Assembly: GCA_013388435.1 (NCBI GenBank)
Contig: JACAFE010000066.1
Coordinates: 1 to 50,275, forward strand
Length of the DNA: 50,275 bases
Direction: 5' to 3'
Source: Nitrospirota bacterium
GTDB lineage: Bacteria; Nitrospirota; Thermodesulfovibrionia; Thermodesulfovibrionales; SM23-35
Positions 22,096-30,368 of the stretch are shown here, in pieces. Numbering within the stretch: position 1 is the first letter of the stretch; every line of letters starts with the position of its first letter. Below the pieces are notes generated by a model, which saw only the letters and a list, made by a program, of their open reading frames with translations, did not search any database and was not told where the DNA came from. The translations under genes and the position numbers were made by a program.

Positions 22096-24216
22096 ATGAC
22101 CATAATTCATCAAAATTTTTTCTTTATCTTCATGGGTTTCAATTCCATGCTTCTTCAGGTTATCGTTCTAAGAAACCTGCTTTCTGTTTTCTCAGGTAAT
22201 GAACTCGATATCGGAATAACCCTGTCTTCCTGGCTATTTTATGTTGGACTTGGAAGCATGGCAGGAAAATATATAAAAATCAAAAATGCTTTTGCCATCT
22301 CCTTCATTGTAATTGGCATAATTTCATTTCCAACTATCATAGGGATAAGAACTCTTCGCTCTTTTTTAGGGCTTTCACCCGGCGAAATTATTCCTTTGTC
22401 CAGTATTTTTTCATTAACTGCTCTCATACTTTTACCACTATGTTTTTCAACGGGCATTCAATTCCCTTTAGCTGTATCAGGGTTTCAAAAACAGAACACT
22501 GCAGGAAAAATATATGGATTAGAGGCTATCGGTGCTTTCATGTCCGGTAGCGCTTTCACCTTTATTATTGCAGGAAACTTTAGCTCTATTTATACGATAC
22601 TTATCCTTTCTTTAATCAGCATATTGGCCGGAGCCTATATTTCAGGGAAAAAATTAAATTTATTATTTTTAGGTTTCCCGTTGATATATTATCTTTTTGT
22701 TCTTTACTTTTTCCCATTAAATATTAATCTTCCAGGATTTAATCTAATAAAATCGATTGAGTCAAAATATGGTGAAATTCAGGTAATTCAAAGAAATGAT
22801 CAGAAAAGCTTATTTGTTTCAGGACAACTACAGTTTTCATATCCCGATTTTCAGACTGAAGAATTAAATGCCCATCTTGCAATGACAATGCATAAATCTC
22901 CATTTAGAATACTTTTAATCGGAGGTTCACCCGGCATTCTTAGAGAATTGATTAAATATCCTGTAATGAAAATAGATTATATAGAAATTGACCCTGAAAT
23001 TGTTAAGATTTCTAAGGAATTAATAAAAGAAAATGACAAGTCAATACTGAAAGATTTCCACATTTCTTTTAAAACAGAAGATGGCAGATATTTTATAAAA
23101 AATAATGTTTCCGGAACTTACGATTTAATAATGTTAAATATACCTCCGCCATCAACAGCAGGACTGAATAGATTTTACACACAAGAATTCTTTTTAGAAG
23201 TTAAGAAAGTCTTAAAATATGATGGCCTGCTTATGCTCAGTCTTCCGGTCTCCTTTGGATATATGAGCAAAAGTGTCCAAACTTTAAACGGTACAATTTA
23301 CAAAACACTCGATAGTGTATTTAACCATGTTGAAGTTACATCACAGGAATATGGAAAAATATTTGCTTCTGATTCACTAATAAATACAGCACCTTCATTA
23401 TTATCCGAAAGGTTCTTAAAACATAACTTACAGACCGGGTATTTTCACAGTGGAATATTTGATGATGCGTTTGAAGAATTTGATATTAAATATGTTAAGG
23501 AAAGAATAAGCCGGATAAATAATATTAACAAAGACACGAGACCTTTAGCATACTTTTATAATCTTATGCTCTGGGATGAAATACAGGGCACGGAAATCTT
23601 TTTATTTATCCAGAAATTAACAAAATGGCATTTAATTGTTTTTATAACTACTATTTTTATATTATCCCTGCTATTTCTAAAAAACAGGAAAAAGAAAATA
23701 TACTTTTCAATGTTTATAACAGGTTTTTATTGTATGACATTAACCATATGTTTAATACTCGGTTATCAGGCAATATATGGATATGTCTACGAAAAAATCG
23801 GACTCCTATCCGGTTTATTAATGATTGGATTATGGATTGGCACAAAAATTCATGAGAAAACCAGAGATACAAATAACATATTCCTGATCCTTGATTTATT
23901 GTCCATAGCAGTTTGTATCCTTTTTTTAATTTCATTCCGGTACGGGATAGCCTTCTATTTAATTATATTATCTACAGGCATTGTTACAGGTAAGTGGTTT
24001 GCTTCTGCGACAAAAGCTATCGGAGAAGGAGGCTCTTTATACGGCATTGAACTTATTGGTTCTTTTATAGGTGCGATTTCATCAACAATCGTCCTTATTC
24101 CTTTATTTGGTTTTACCACAACAATAATTCTGCTTATATCAATTAAAGCAATTTCTGCATTATTTCAATTGCATTTCGGGGTTAACAGGAAGTTATTTTC
24201 TATTTACAGAAAATAG
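22096..24216 (+). CDS. Membrane-fused spermidine-synthase-like protein
   Basis: The 706-residue protein has an N-terminal half-transporter (about seven helices, residues 1-215), a spermidine-synthase-like Rossmann domain (about 220-470; ILLIGGSPGILRELI, YIEIDPEIV, SGTYDLIMLNIPPPSTAGLNRFYTQEFF) and a C-terminal set of about seven helices (500-695). The motif GGGDG of true spermidine synthases is replaced by GGSPG and the catalytic acid region by NIPPP, so aminopropyl transfer is doubtful. Such fusions are common in Nitrospirota and Deltaproteobacteria. TATAAT at 22084-22089 lies six bases before the ATG. Its end overlaps the convergent regulator gene by 24 bases. Confidence 0.88.
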   Translation: MTIIHQNFFFIFMGFNSMLLQVIVLRNLLSVFSGNELDIGITLSSWLFYVGLGSMAGKYIKIKNAFAISFIVIGIISFPTIIGIRTLRSFLGLSPGEIIPLSSIFSLTALILLPLCFSTGIQFPLAVSGFQKQNTAGKIYGLEAIGAFMSGSAFTFIIAGNFSSIYTILILSLISILAGAYISGKKLNLLFLGFPLIYYLFVLYFFPLNINLPGFNLIKSIESKYGEIQVIQRNDQKSLFVSGQLQFSYPDFQTEELNAHLAMTMHKSPFRILLIGGSPGILRELIKYPVMKIDYIEIDPEIVKISKELIKENDKSILKDFHISFKTEDGRYFIKNNVSGTYDLIMLNIPPPSTAGLNRFYTQEFFLEVKKVLKYDGLLMLSLPVSFGYMSKSVQTLNGTIYKTLDSVFNHVEVTSQEYGKIFASDSLINTAPSLLSERFLKHNLQTGYFHSGIFDDAFEEFDIKYVKERISRINNINKDTRPLAYFYNLMLWDEIQGTEIFLFIQKLTKWHLIVFITTIFILSLLFLKNRKKKIYFSMFITGFYCMTLTICLILGYQAIYGYVYEKIGLLSGLLMIGLWIGTKIHEKTRDTNNIFLILDLLSIAVCILFLISFRYGIAFYLIILSTGIVTGKWFASATKAIGEGGSLYGIELIGSFIGAISSTIVLIPLFGFTTTIILLISIKAISALFQLHFGVNRKLFSIYRK

Positions 24217-24525
24217 AGGTTCGCTTATACTTTCGCTCTTACAAACAGGACACTTTCCCGGCTTTTTTAGTTTGTCTCTTTTTATAAATTCAAATCCACA
24301 TTTTTTACAGACAGAAGGGTAAACTTTCAGATTACATTCTTTTTTACTTCCTGTTGTTCTACGTATGTGTTCAAGATGTTCGTAAACTTCTTTTTCAGGA
24401 ATTGCTACCTGACTCGATATTTCTTTCGCTGACAATACCATTCCGTCAATCATATGAAGTATTGCCTGCCTTATCGTTTCTTTTCTCTCAGCAGGTGTGC
24501 AAGGCTTGAGTGGTTTGTTTTTCAT
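24193..24525 (-). CDS. HTH/zinc-ribbon transcriptional regulator
   Basis: This 110-residue protein combines a winged-helix-like domain (residues about 15-60, GMVLSAKEISSQVAIPEKEV) with a C-terminal zinc ribbon, Cys pairs CKKC and CPVC. This matches COG3357-type predicted regulators. I start at the ATG 24525; the frame extends to 24609 but that would overlap the HD-GYP gene by 77 bases. It sits seven bases after the HD-GYP stop and is probably in the same transcript. Confidence 0.85.
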   Translation of the reverse strand: MKNKPLKPCTPAERKETIRQAILHMIDGMVLSAKEISSQVAIPEKEVYEHLEHIRRTTGSKKECNLKVYPSVCKKCGFEFIKRDKLKKPGKCPVCKSESISEPLFSVNRK

Positions 24526-24532
24526 TAATTTT

Positions 24533-25648
24533 CTACCCTGATAGAACCCTAAACATTGATTTAATGAAATTATCCAGAAGGAATGGATTAAACATTCCTT
24601 CTGATTCATTTTTCATCAAGAAAAGTATTTCCTCAAATTCCTGTTCTTTACGATACGGCCTTCTGCTTCTTAAAGCGTCGAAATAGTCTGAGATTGCAAC
24701 TATCTGCGAGCAAATATGCTGTTTCCTGCTATTATTCTTTATCTCAGGATAACCCTTTCCATCGAATCTCAGATGATGTTCATAAGCTACAATTGGCGCA
24801 AGCCGGGTTAGCCCGTTTATTTTTGCAAGATATTTTGAACCATAAACTGTATGAAGTTTGATTTCATTCCATTCACGGTCATTAAGTTTTTCTTTTTTTT
24901 CTAAGATATTAACATTAATAAAAACCTTTCCAACATCATGTAAAAGAGCGGCGATCCCTATATCATGCTTCAAGTCTTCTCTAACTCCGAGTGATTCAGC
25001 CTGAAACATTGATAATACAGCAACATTTGTGGCATGTACATATGTATATTCACTCGTGGATTTTACAGGGCATAATAGCTTCAGGACATTAGATTCTCTC
25101 TTGAAAGCAGCAGCAAATTTTAAAACGATCTCTTCCAGTCCGTAGGTTTCAAGTTTCTTAAAGTGCGACACACCAGTAAATATTTCCCTTACACCATCTG
25201 CCTGTAATCCCGATAATTTACTTATATCTCCTATCTTAAAATCTTCCGCTAATTTTTGTCCCCCTAATCTTATATCAACAATACCGGTTACAATATGTGG
25301 GTATCCTTTTACGGTTTTCTCTTTATCTAACAAAGAAACTATAAAATCTTTTATTTCATTAAATTCAACACCTTTCAAAATATCAACACGAGAGATACCT
25401 TTGCGTTTTAGTTTCTTCATCAGATTTATTACATGTATCCCTGCGTTTCTTATTAATGTTTTATTAACAACTATGTCATCTTCTATAACCATAATCTCGA
25501 CAGAATCTGAATTATTGAATAAAATATTCAAAACATCTATGGTTTTAGTAATGAACTCACTGACAGATGCATGCTCTCCTGAATAAAGAGAACAGTTTGA
25601 AACAGCAGACGAAAATGATAGAAGAAATTCATTCAAAGTTTCAATCAT
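24533..25648 (-). CDS. HD-GYP domain protein with shared N-terminal domain
   Basis: The 371-residue protein has a C-terminal HD-GYP domain (residues about 180-350), with LLHDVGK, the conserved EHHLRFDG and GKGYP, so it should hydrolyse cyclic-di-GMP to GMP or pGpG. The N-terminal 130 residues are not a receiver; they align without gaps with the N-terminus of the HEAT protein encoded upstream (LYSGEHASVSEFITK versus IYPKDHPSVEKSLNR). The two genes overlap by eight bases. Cytoplasmic, no membrane segments. Degenerate metal residues were not checked position by position. Confidence 0.92.
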   Translation of the reverse strand: MIETLNEFLLSFSSAVSNCSLYSGEHASVSEFITKTIDVLNILFNNSDSVEIMVIEDDIVVNKTLIRNAGIHVINLMKKLKRKGISRVDILKGVEFNEIKDFIVSLLDKEKTVKGYPHIVTGIVDIRLGGQKLAEDFKIGDISKLSGLQADGVREIFTGVSHFKKLETYGLEEIVLKFAAAFKRESNVLKLLCPVKSTSEYTYVHATNVAVLSMFQAESLGVREDLKHDIGIAALLHDVGKVFINVNILEKKEKLNDREWNEIKLHTVYGSKYLAKINGLTRLAPIVAYEHHLRFDGKGYPEIKNNSRKQHICSQIVAISDYFDALRSRRPYRKEQEFEEILFLMKNESEGMFNPFLLDNFIKSMFRVLSG

Positions 25649-27791
25649 GTTTAACTCTCTGTATCAATCTTCTTGATTCGTTTTTTATAATTTCATTTTC
25701 TGATTTCAGGCCTTCTCTTAAAATATCCTGAATGCTATCAAGTGGATAGTTCTTTAAAGATTTATATATTTCTTCTTTAAGATTTTCCATGGCATTTTTA
25801 AAAAGTATTCTTCTTGAAGATAGCAATTCTTTCAAAGCTACTATAGCTTTCGGATCTCCTATTTCTCCAAGAGCCTTAACAATTGAGATCTTCTGATATA
25901 TATCATAACTGCTTAATATCCTTTTCTTTAAAATATGTAAAAGGTCATCAACAGCTTCATTAACCCTGTATATGCCCGCAAGTGTTGCTGCCATTTCTAT
26001 ATTTTCAAACGACCCGGATTTTAGATAATTCCTTAGAGATTTAATCCCATATTCATCACTGGAATTTAAGAGACACCTTAAGGCTTCAAAACAAACTTTT
26101 TCTTTATCATGATGAACATAAGGTTTTACACGATCCAATATCTCAGGATTCTTTGAATCAGCAAGAAGATAAAGCATATTTCTTTTTACAAACCATCTTT
26201 TATCTTCGAGCCTTTTCAAAGCTTCTGGAATTATTCTGTCTCCAAAACGTTTCAATAAATTTATTAAAAACTTTCTGATAATTGGCGACTCCTCGTCAGC
26301 AAGGGCATCCATTAATAACGGGATAATAAGTTTTCCATAATAGTCGCAAAGAAGCCAGACTTCCTCTCTTGATTGTCGTCCGAATATCCTGAATGAATCA
26401 ATAAGCCTTCTTAAAAACTCTTGCGAGTAAAATAATTCAATAAATTTTTCTGTTATTTCAGGGTATTTTTTGTTTTCTTCATTGTAAGAAATCAATTTTA
26501 AGAGTTGATATATCTGACCGAATTGTCCTGTATATACAAATTCATCAACTCTTTCACCAAGAAGGTTCATTAATACTTTATATTCCTCAATATCTGTAAC
26601 AAAATCTGATGATAGTAAATCAATAATTATCTGACTAAAATATTTTTCAATATAATCGTCATCATATTCTTTGTCGAATTCTTTTATAATACTGGAACCG
26701 GCAAAAGGCGATGAATATTCAAGGATTTTTCTGATTTCAGACATGTATTTTTCACTAACAAATTTTTTCCCGTCATCTTCAATCATCAGTTGTTTTGCGT
26801 CACCAGAAAGAAATATATCATCAACTACATATTCGCTTCCTGAAACAAAATGCTCGTCAACTGCAGAAGGCAGAGAAGAAAATTTGTCAATAAGATTTTT
26901 AAGGTTTTCGGGTATCTTCAGATTTTGTTCATTAATTGAATTTATAAATTTAACCGCCTCATCTACACTTATTTCATTAAAAATTGCCTTTGCAGCTTGA
27001 ACATCCTTTGATACAATTTTGACAGTCGAAGCGAGAAACTGTTTTTTAATTTCAGGTTTCAAAGCACTGATCAATTTATTTAATTTCCCCATCTCTTGAT
27101 CGGAAAATATATTTGATGAAGGCCTGCTTATATATGAAGTTATTACTTTATCATATGTCTCCTCTTTTACCTCATCCGTAATAGTTCTGTTAAGAAAATC
27201 GCCGAGAGAATCAGGTGGAATACCCTGAATAATATCAGACACATCTTCTGAAAGAAGAGCACCGGTAAGCAGTCCATATATATACTTTTCCCAGATAGAT
27301 GATTTTCTTTTATCATCCTTTATATCAGTAGAATCAACAAAAGAGAATGCATCATAATTAATAAAACCAAGATTTAGTTTTTTTAGTGGTTGTTCAATAA
27401 ACTTCTTTTCGATTAACTCGGGAGAATCAACCAGTGTTTTATCTGTAATTGTTTTTTGAAATTCATATAGTTCATCTTTTGTAATGCCTTTTTTAAATGT
27501 TATATAAGCAATTCCCAATCTATTCATATAAAGTGCAAAATCTTTATAAACAGGATTTTTCTTTTCCAGGAAAAATTCATCTATAATAAGGGTATCTTTT
27601 GCGATAGCTATTGTAATATCTTCTCTTAATTCAAAAATTTTTTGTAATAAATCAAAACAACGGTTTAATGATTTTTCAACAGAAGGGTGGTCTTTAGGAT
27701 AAATTGTAACATTACGTCTCGCTATATTGAGTTCAATGATAGCATCACTAAGAAGACGTGCATCTATACTTAGCTCTTTTTCCCCTGGCAT
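25641..27791 (-). CDS. HEAT-repeat protein paired with HD-GYP
   Basis: The 716-residue protein has an N-terminal alpha/beta domain (about 1-140) homologous to the one in the HD-GYP protein, a long helical middle, and HEAT/PBS-lyase-type repeats from about residue 480 to the end (for example SIVKALGEIGDPKAIVALKE). HEAT repeats form a curved surface for binding partners. It is expressed in the same operon and overlaps the HD-GYP start by eight bases, which suggests a direct complex. The frame may start at a TTG two codons earlier (27797), but ATG is preferred. The function of the pair is unknown. Confidence 0.88.
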   Translation of the reverse strand: MPGEKELSIDARLLSDAIIELNIARRNVTIYPKDHPSVEKSLNRCFDLLQKIFELREDITIAIAKDTLIIDEFFLEKKNPVYKDFALYMNRLGIAYITFKKGITKDELYEFQKTITDKTLVDSPELIEKKFIEQPLKKLNLGFINYDAFSFVDSTDIKDDKRKSSIWEKYIYGLLTGALLSEDVSDIIQGIPPDSLGDFLNRTITDEVKEETYDKVITSYISRPSSNIFSDQEMGKLNKLISALKPEIKKQFLASTVKIVSKDVQAAKAIFNEISVDEAVKFINSINEQNLKIPENLKNLIDKFSSLPSAVDEHFVSGSEYVVDDIFLSGDAKQLMIEDDGKKFVSEKYMSEIRKILEYSSPFAGSSIIKEFDKEYDDDYIEKYFSQIIIDLLSSDFVTDIEEYKVLMNLLGERVDEFVYTGQFGQIYQLLKLISYNEENKKYPEITEKFIELFYSQEFLRRLIDSFRIFGRQSREEVWLLCDYYGKLIIPLLMDALADEESPIIRKFLINLLKRFGDRIIPEALKRLEDKRWFVKRNMLYLLADSKNPEILDRVKPYVHHDKEKVCFEALRCLLNSSDEYGIKSLRNYLKSGSFENIEMAATLAGIYRVNEAVDDLLHILKKRILSSYDIYQKISIVKALGEIGDPKAIVALKELLSSRRILFKNAMENLKEEIYKSLKNYPLDSIQDILREGLKSENEIIKNESRRLIQRVKHD

Positions 27792-27814
27792 TTTCAACTA
27801 ACCTTAATTGGTTG

Positions 27815-28834
<1,020 letters not shown>

Positions 28835-29681: not shown

Positions 29682-30368
29682 TTATAGTATATCTTTTTCA
29701 AGCGAGTTAATAAAAGATATCAAAATGTCCTCATCCTGTTCTGACATCTTAAGGAATTCAATCCCTACTTCATATTTTTTGATACTCTCATCTGCTATTT
29801 CTCTTATATTCGAAATTTTAGTAATAATCCTCAGGCTATGTGAATTAATAAAGAGTTCCATCTCACATTGCGAATCGATTTCGAGCGGGATTTCTGTCTC
29901 TACAAGCATTCCCGACATGCTTATTTTTTTCACTTTATACTCATGAGGGACATCAACCTGCATTGTCTTATTGCCAGATAATTTAAATCTAACCCCGCCA
30001 AGTCTGTTTTCGAGTTTTCTGGTTCTATTTTGATTTATAAAGTTCTGAAGCATTAAAGCCTTTTCGCTCAGTGTATCTGTAAACTTTATCCCGGCTCGAT
30101 AAACAGGCATTACTGTTCCTGTATCTTTATTTAGTTTTGAAATAAGAAATGCCCAGACTACTTTTCCTCTGAGATTAAGCAAATTTTCTCCAAATTTTAT
30201 TTTAAAAGAATATTCACGGTTGATTTCAAGACGTCTTGGTGTCTCAATTGCAGCGCCATCTATGCTTATATTAAGGACTTCTATATCAGAAGTATAAAGG
30301 ACATTACCCTGTAATCCTTCAACAACATATCTTTTGTTTTTCCTGTTTTCGGCTCTTTGATCTGTCAT
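29682..30368 (-). CDS. Double PilZ-domain protein
   Basis: The 228-residue cytoplasmic protein has two PilZ-like beta domains. The first (residues about 8-115) has a basic N-terminal segment RKNKRY and the NISIDGAAIET motif; the second (about 120-225) has KKISMSGMLVETEI but lacks a clear RXXXR. The first should bind cyclic-di-GMP, the second may be degenerate. It overlaps the Memo gene by four bases. The two-domain form resembles YcgR-like proteins. Confidence 0.86.
   Translation of the reverse strand: MTDQRAENRKNKRYVVEGLQGNVLYTSDIEVLNISIDGAAIETPRRLEINREYSFKIKFGENLLNLRGKVVWAFLISKLNKDTGTVMPVYRAGIKFTDTLSEKALMLQNFINQNRTRKLENRLGGVRFKLSGNKTMQVDVPHEYKVKKISMSGMLVETEIPLEIDSQCEMELFINSHSLRIITKISNIREIADESIKKYEVGIEFLKMSEQDEDILISFINSLEKDIL

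Follow-up and report, generated by a model that had tools for sequence, protein, structure and literature searches.

Gene organization of the locus

The window, a contiguous stretch of 50,275 nucleotides from a Nitrospirota bacterium, harbors two overlapping genes on the reverse strand, which encode a HEAT-repeat scaffold protein and, directly downstream, a predicted HD-GYP cyclic-dinucleotide phosphodiesterase (Table 1). The original prediction had placed an overlap of eight bases between the two genes, which was borne out upon direct reading of the stop/start region. For the HEAT gene, a TTG codon 6 bases upstream of the ATG provides an alternative start (25641-27797, reverse strand, 718 aa); the ATG is more likely the start, as the HEAT protein of the congener begins at the same methionine.

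Table 1. Features of the HEAT/HD-GYP locus and its immediate neighbors.
Feature	Position	Strand	Remarks
PF0610-like winged-helix and zinc-ribbon gene	24193..24525	-	PF21476 and PF23470 above cut-off
HD-GYP cyclic-dinucleotide phosphodiesterase gene (predicted)	24533..25648	-	371 aa; Pfam HD_5 3e-18, HD 7e-15
HD-GYP catalytic domain	24536..25063	-	residues ~196-371; HDVGK 237-241, HHLRFDGKGYP 291-301
Shared N-terminal domain, HD-GYP protein	25274..25636	-	residues ~5-125
Stop/start overlap HEAT/HD-GYP	25641..25648	-	exactly 8 bases, ATGATTGA, read directly
HEAT-repeat scaffold gene	25641..27791	-	likely ATG start at 27791, 716 aa; Pfam HEAT_2 1e-14
All-helical HEAT solenoid	25644..27296	-	residues ~168-718; AlphaFold2 model best from ~380 onward
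Shared N-terminal domain, HEAT protein	27348..27752	-	residues ~16-150 (718-aa numbering); includes YPxxHP motif
obgE	27815..28825	-	Pfam GTP1_OBG 7.5e-67

On the same strand, the pair is flanked upstream by obgE, 23 nt from the ATG of the HEAT gene, and downstream by a PF0610-like gene, which starts 7 nt past the HD-GYP stop codon and is probably co-transcribed with the pair. The name of the latter family comes from an archaeal (Pyrococcus) protein. Among 83 pair loci, obgE adjoins the pair in five and the PF0610-like gene is present in four, placing both outside the conserved unit. Generally, none of the neighboring genes was conserved across these loci and none provided a clue to a target; as no family occurred in more than 10 of the 83, the unit moves alone, without its neighbors. 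Upstream of the pair, at a distance of about two kb, a gene at 29682-30368 (reverse strand) encodes a protein with two PilZ stretches, and related PilZ genes are located near a HEAT/HD-GYP pair in a few other loci.

The two proteins share a homologous N-terminal domain

By BLASTP, residues 5-120 of the HD-GYP protein aligned with residues 16-129 of the HEAT protein at 20% identity and 51% positives (E 7e-8). Only two gap positions occurred, both past some 108 ungapped columns, and Tyr22 of the HD-GYP protein corresponds to Tyr33 of the HEAT protein (718-aa numbering). The original prediction of an end-to-end alignment without gaps therefore stands with respect to homology and to the ungapped stretch of about 108 columns; the offset is, however, 11 residues and not 15, and the limits proposed earlier (20-110 and 35-125) were too narrow, as the homology extends from about residues 5/16 to about 125/150.

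N-terminal profiles were built separately for each side from relatives gathered from 60 related genomes. The HD profile retrieved the complete HEAT set of 43 sequences, one of which was a misfiled HD protein, with a median E value of 4e-12 and a worst value of 2e-6, compared to 0.083 for the best shuffled decoy. The HEAT profile matched 42 of 42 HD proteins with a median E value of 4e-7, its weakest match (0.005) overlapping with the best decoy (0.002). Direct alignment of both profiles by hhalign yielded a probability of 99.5% (E 4e-23, 108 of 113 columns), compared to less than 1% for unrelated profiles (GGDEF, HD core, HEAT core). With cleaner sets and longer ends, the probability was 99.3% over 129 columns for one type of pair (type A, see below), extending into a common strand with an HIxxGxxD motif, and 97.7-98.0% within a second type (type B) and across types. 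As judged from these alignments, the N-termini of the two proteins are homologous over up to about 130 residues.

AlphaFold2 models, based on 22 sequences for the HD-GYP protein and 19 for the HEAT protein, predicted the same order of elements for both N-termini (α-α-β-β-α-β-α, followed by a strand). In the HD-GYP protein, helices were placed at residues 2-21, 27-43, 71-82 and 96-106 and strands at 49-55, 58-61, 87-91 and 119-122, with pLDDT values mostly between 82 and 96 up to residue 120; in the HEAT protein, helices were placed at 10-31, 37-54, 81-92 and 106-117 and strands at 59-65, 68-71, 95-101 and 140-144. The pLDDT values of the blocks were mostly in the 80s and 90s on both sides. The predicted secondary structures of the two domains thus match, and together with the profile alignment they assign both N-termini to one family, as had been proposed. 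That the similarity merely arose by chance or by convergence of short alpha/beta segments appears extremely improbable: the two copies in the window are only 20% identical, as such an origin would allow, but the pairwise E value, the high profile match next to the values below 1% for unrelated profiles and the identical order of helices and strands all argue against it.

A search of 57 members of the domain against Pfam families, including receiver, PAS and GAF, yielded nothing consistent and no convincing match, in agreement with the earlier notion that the domain is neither a receiver nor a PAS domain. Similarly, NCBIfam held no family covering the N-terminal part, and no credible match to the domain profile occurred among PDB sequences; the best one, a designed protein, was hit by three weak fragments only and was judged spurious. 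A degenerate GGDEF domain, suggested by a reminiscent order of helices and strands, was rejected (hhalign 0.5%).

Further downstream in the models, the linker between the N-terminal domain and the HD domain was poorly modeled (pLDDT 39-59), and the HEAT region was predicted as an all-helical alpha-solenoid, for which Foldseek returned alphaRep, karyopherin and PP2A-A solenoids. Pfam HEAT_2 above cut-off, the AlphaFold2 model and Foldseek consistently classify the predicted protein as a HEAT-repeat/alpha-solenoid protein. Foldseek matches of the full-length models were dominated by the HD-GYP and HEAT parts, those of the HD-GYP model being 4mcw, 4r8z and 9rbz.

The catalytic part and comparison with known systems

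The catalytic domain aligned residue by residue with PmGH (4mcw; phmmer E 3.9e-28), for which eight metal ligands have been named (PMC4159591). Seven of these are kept in the window protein (H205, H237, D238, H266, H291, H292 and D321) and the eighth, Glu185, is replaced by Tyr201, a replacement also present in the alignment of V-cGAP3; thus, the metal site is likely binuclear. The metal-site and GYP residues were invariant across 22 relatives, including H237, D238, G240, K241 and both histidines preceding GYP, and the HDxGK motif occurred in all 96 distinct pairs. Compared to the motif HHExxDGxGYP, the loop of the window protein (HHLRFDGKGYP) retains HH and GYP but not the glutamate, a position at which most pair members have Leu, Met or Ile and none of the 93 fitting the pattern has Glu. 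These residues suggest that the HD-GYP protein is probably an active phosphodiesterase on c-di-GMP or cGAMP. The presumed substrate is c-di-GMP, with cGAMP as a possible alternative; the second-best PDB match of the protein was V-cGAP3, named as cGAMP-specific.

PmGH (4mcw), DvhD (9rc0) and V-cGAP3 (5z7c) likewise combine an HD-GYP catalytic domain with an N-terminal regulatory domain. In contrast to these, the N-terminal domain of the window enzyme is absent, by sequence, from Pfam, NCBIfam and the PDB, and the enzyme is co-encoded with a HEAT partner bearing a homologous domain. The HD-GYP fold also occurs in Bd1817 of Bdellovibrio (3tm8; Foldseek TM 0.5-0.6 to the window protein), but its sequence match is confined to the linker and the HD part and does not include the N-terminal domain; according to PMC4159591 and the PDB title, Bd1817 has no activity, and its GYP motif is without the tyrosine. 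An alpha-solenoid of HEAT_2 repeats is common to the window HEAT protein, PBS-lyase-type HEAT proteins and the PP2A A subunit, from which the window protein differs in having the new N-terminal domain and in being co-encoded with a phosphodiesterase in one operon. HD-GYP enzymes and HEAT scaffolds as such are already known. However, no description of the domain, of the two-gene unit or of its spread was found in Pfam, NCBIfam, PDB sequences or the literature searched, nor did literature on HEAT combined with HD-GYP, GGDEF or PilZ describe this pair. The domain merits a family entry, as it marks proteins currently annotated as no more than HEAT or HD proteins.

HEAT and HD-GYP genes form a near-obligate pair

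The pair was identified in Nitrospirota (Thermodesulfovibrionia), Geobacteraceae, Desulfuromonadales and Acidobacteriota, i.e., in at least three phyla. A scan of named genomes yielded 72 loci from these groups; at those with enough downstream DNA, broken genes excepted, the HEAT gene was directly followed by a domain-bearing HD-GYP gene. A domain-bearing HEAT gene was located directly upstream and on the same strand for 97 out of 106 distinct domain-bearing HD-GYP proteins. The remaining nine also had a HEAT gene upstream, but one in which the N-terminal domain was truncated by the end of the contig, disrupted, hidden under a longer overlapping reading frame or scored below threshold. The HEAT gene always came first, with no other order seen among the 106, and 67 of the 97 pairs overlapped (median gap -4 nt). 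The co-occurrence across genomes thus agrees with the pairing proposed in the original prediction, as the two genes are adjacent almost without exception.

As many of the pair loci had been found by the HEAT query, searches with the domain only, unselected for pairing, were added. Among 99 genomes from the phylum of a Geobacter MAG, these revealed 44 pairs along with 28 singles and 2 tandems, and among 99 Acidobacteriota genomes 22 pairs along with 17 singles and 2 tandems; over both phyla (198 genomes), the adjacent pairs total 66. Of the 47 positive Nitrospirota genomes, 41 had an even number of domains. Most of the HD-GYP-sized singles were checked, and a HEAT gene upstream or a contig end was found in all but one. 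The sole exception, in an Acidobacteriota genome (L242:4346-4996, reverse strand), is a 216-aa orphan consisting of the N-terminal domain and a C-terminal HD stub, in which the catalytic core is deleted and which has no HEAT gene; it is a decayed copy. Thus, an intact domain-bearing HD-GYP protein does not appear to occur alone.

Paralogous pairs descend together

A second, paralogous pair, consisting of a HEAT protein of about 550 aa and an HD-GYP protein of about 470 or 400 aa, is present in most of the related genomes with the domain, so that at least two pair types exist. The genome of the window is without a second pair, which is present in its congener and in most relatives; this reflects either loss or an assembly gap. 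Distances among HD-GYP proteins and among HEAT proteins were closely correlated over 96 pairs (Mantel r 0.97; largest of 500 permutations 0.18), which indicates that the pairs duplicate and descend together. A tree of the 192 N-terminal domains separated the HD side from the HEAT side without error (96:96, support 0.956) across pair types, and by this tree the two sides predate the split into pair types and have been kept apart since. When solo proteins (see below) were added, the HD-side group was not cleanly separated, with 22 misplacements in a tree of what is a short domain.

At His26 of the HD-GYP and His37 of the HEAT protein (YxxxH/N motif), His is common to both partners in 67 of the 74 type-A pairs and Asn in 19 of the 22 type-B pairs, a switch that may rest on one or two events. 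Column covariation between the partners ranked (43,43) 6th of 11,881; with an Neff of about 83 and a signal that tracks the pair types, this is only suggestive.

The domain also occurs outside the HD-GYP pair

Domain-bearing HEAT proteins without an HD-GYP partner were found in 26 distinct cases, among them proteins with the architectures GGDEF-AAA_16-N(-N)-HEAT and N-HEAT-cNMP-PilZ, in which N denotes the domain. The former are large proteins from the Desulfobacterota side (L199:1529-5773, L200:2366-6610, L203-L205 and L214), in which GGDEF and STAND-like AAA_16 domains are followed mid-chain by the domain, in single or double copy, and then by HEAT repeats. This architecture was confirmed by Pfam for L199 and L203, and the others were matched by length and domain position; these are apparently undescribed diguanylate-cyclase architectures. 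In the latter (L206:5013-10055 and L207:3919-6675), the domain and HEAT repeats precede C-terminal cyclic-nucleotide-binding and PilZ domains. In addition, solo N-domain proteins of 734-751 aa occur (L215:4440-6644, L216, L222, L224, L226 and L227); a C-terminal GGDEF match was weak in L215 (E 2.7e-6), weaker in L227 and absent from L216.

As HEAT proteins carry the domain without HD-GYP, some of them in fusion with GGDEF or PilZ, its role is not confined to this pair, and it has some function of its own, which may be self-association or binding of a shared ligand. Some relatives contain tandem copies in a single chain. The idea that such tandems represent a fusion of one HD-type and one HEAT-type copy was not supported, since the copies do not sort in this way.

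A possible enzyme-scaffold unit

It is an open question how a cell separates its many cyclic-dinucleotide phosphodiesterases from each other and directs them to their targets. A dedicated scaffold gene that accompanies the gene of the enzyme, and whose product has the same N-terminal domain, offers a clear and testable candidate for local control, present in widespread environmental bacteria including the Geobacteraceae. With some reserve, we favor a dedicated enzyme-scaffold pair, in which the phosphodiesterase is docked to its own HEAT scaffold through the homologous N-terminal domains. The two copies would descend from an old duplication and now represent two distinct types, which may pair across the proteins as a pseudo-symmetric heterodimer or hetero-oligomer. 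The overlapping genes would provide both chains in one place and in matched amounts, and the solenoid may bind a target or signal and thereby position, activate or restrain the phosphodiesterase. We infer the direct contact between the N-terminal domains, and likewise the control of the enzyme by the solenoid, from this arrangement; a heteromeric contact best accounts for the near-obligate adjacency in a fixed order, the overlap of stop and start, the joint duplication and the existence of two stable domain types. The enzyme seems to depend on the scaffold, whereas the scaffold seems able to do without the enzyme. However, a functional linkage without contact would lead to co-occurrence and joint descent as well, and the 26 HEAT proteins that bear the domain without HD-GYP, the tandems unsorted by type and the solo proteins that blur the HD-side group speak against this reading.

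The shared domain might instead sense a common small ligand or peptide, to which enzyme and scaffold respond in parallel without touching each other through the domain. The conserved polar positions (Tyr, His/Asn, Asp, Glu), which suggest something beyond a hydrophobic interface, and the presence of the domain on the GGDEF-AAA-HEAT and HEAT-cNMP-PilZ proteins are in line with this, but a sensor would also be expected alone on HD-GYP enzymes. As intact domain-bearing HD-GYP genes always adjoin a HEAT gene, and only one of the 11 HD-GYP-like matches in the genome of the window has the domain, we regard such a sensor as rather unlikely. The parallel His/Asn state would be expected from a pseudo-symmetric interface as well as from a shared ligand, and may reflect very few events. 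Many N-terminal regulatory domains homodimerize, and if this occurred separately in each protein, the operon would reflect nothing but a common pathway. HEAT proteins with the domain but without a partner would fit this, and tandem copies are compatible with any self-association; given the near-absolute pairing, the overlap of the stop and start codons and the His/Asn state that changes in parallel in the two partners, separate homodimers appear quite improbable.

More tentatively, and with considerable doubt, the domain may act as a general adaptor, linking HEAT scaffolds with cyclic-dinucleotide enzymes: paired with HD-GYP for breaking, fused to GGDEF-AAA for making and to PilZ/cNMP for reading the messenger, with type-specific pairing setting which scaffold controls which enzyme. 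If so, parallel pairs within one cell would stay insulated from each other through this type-specific pairing.
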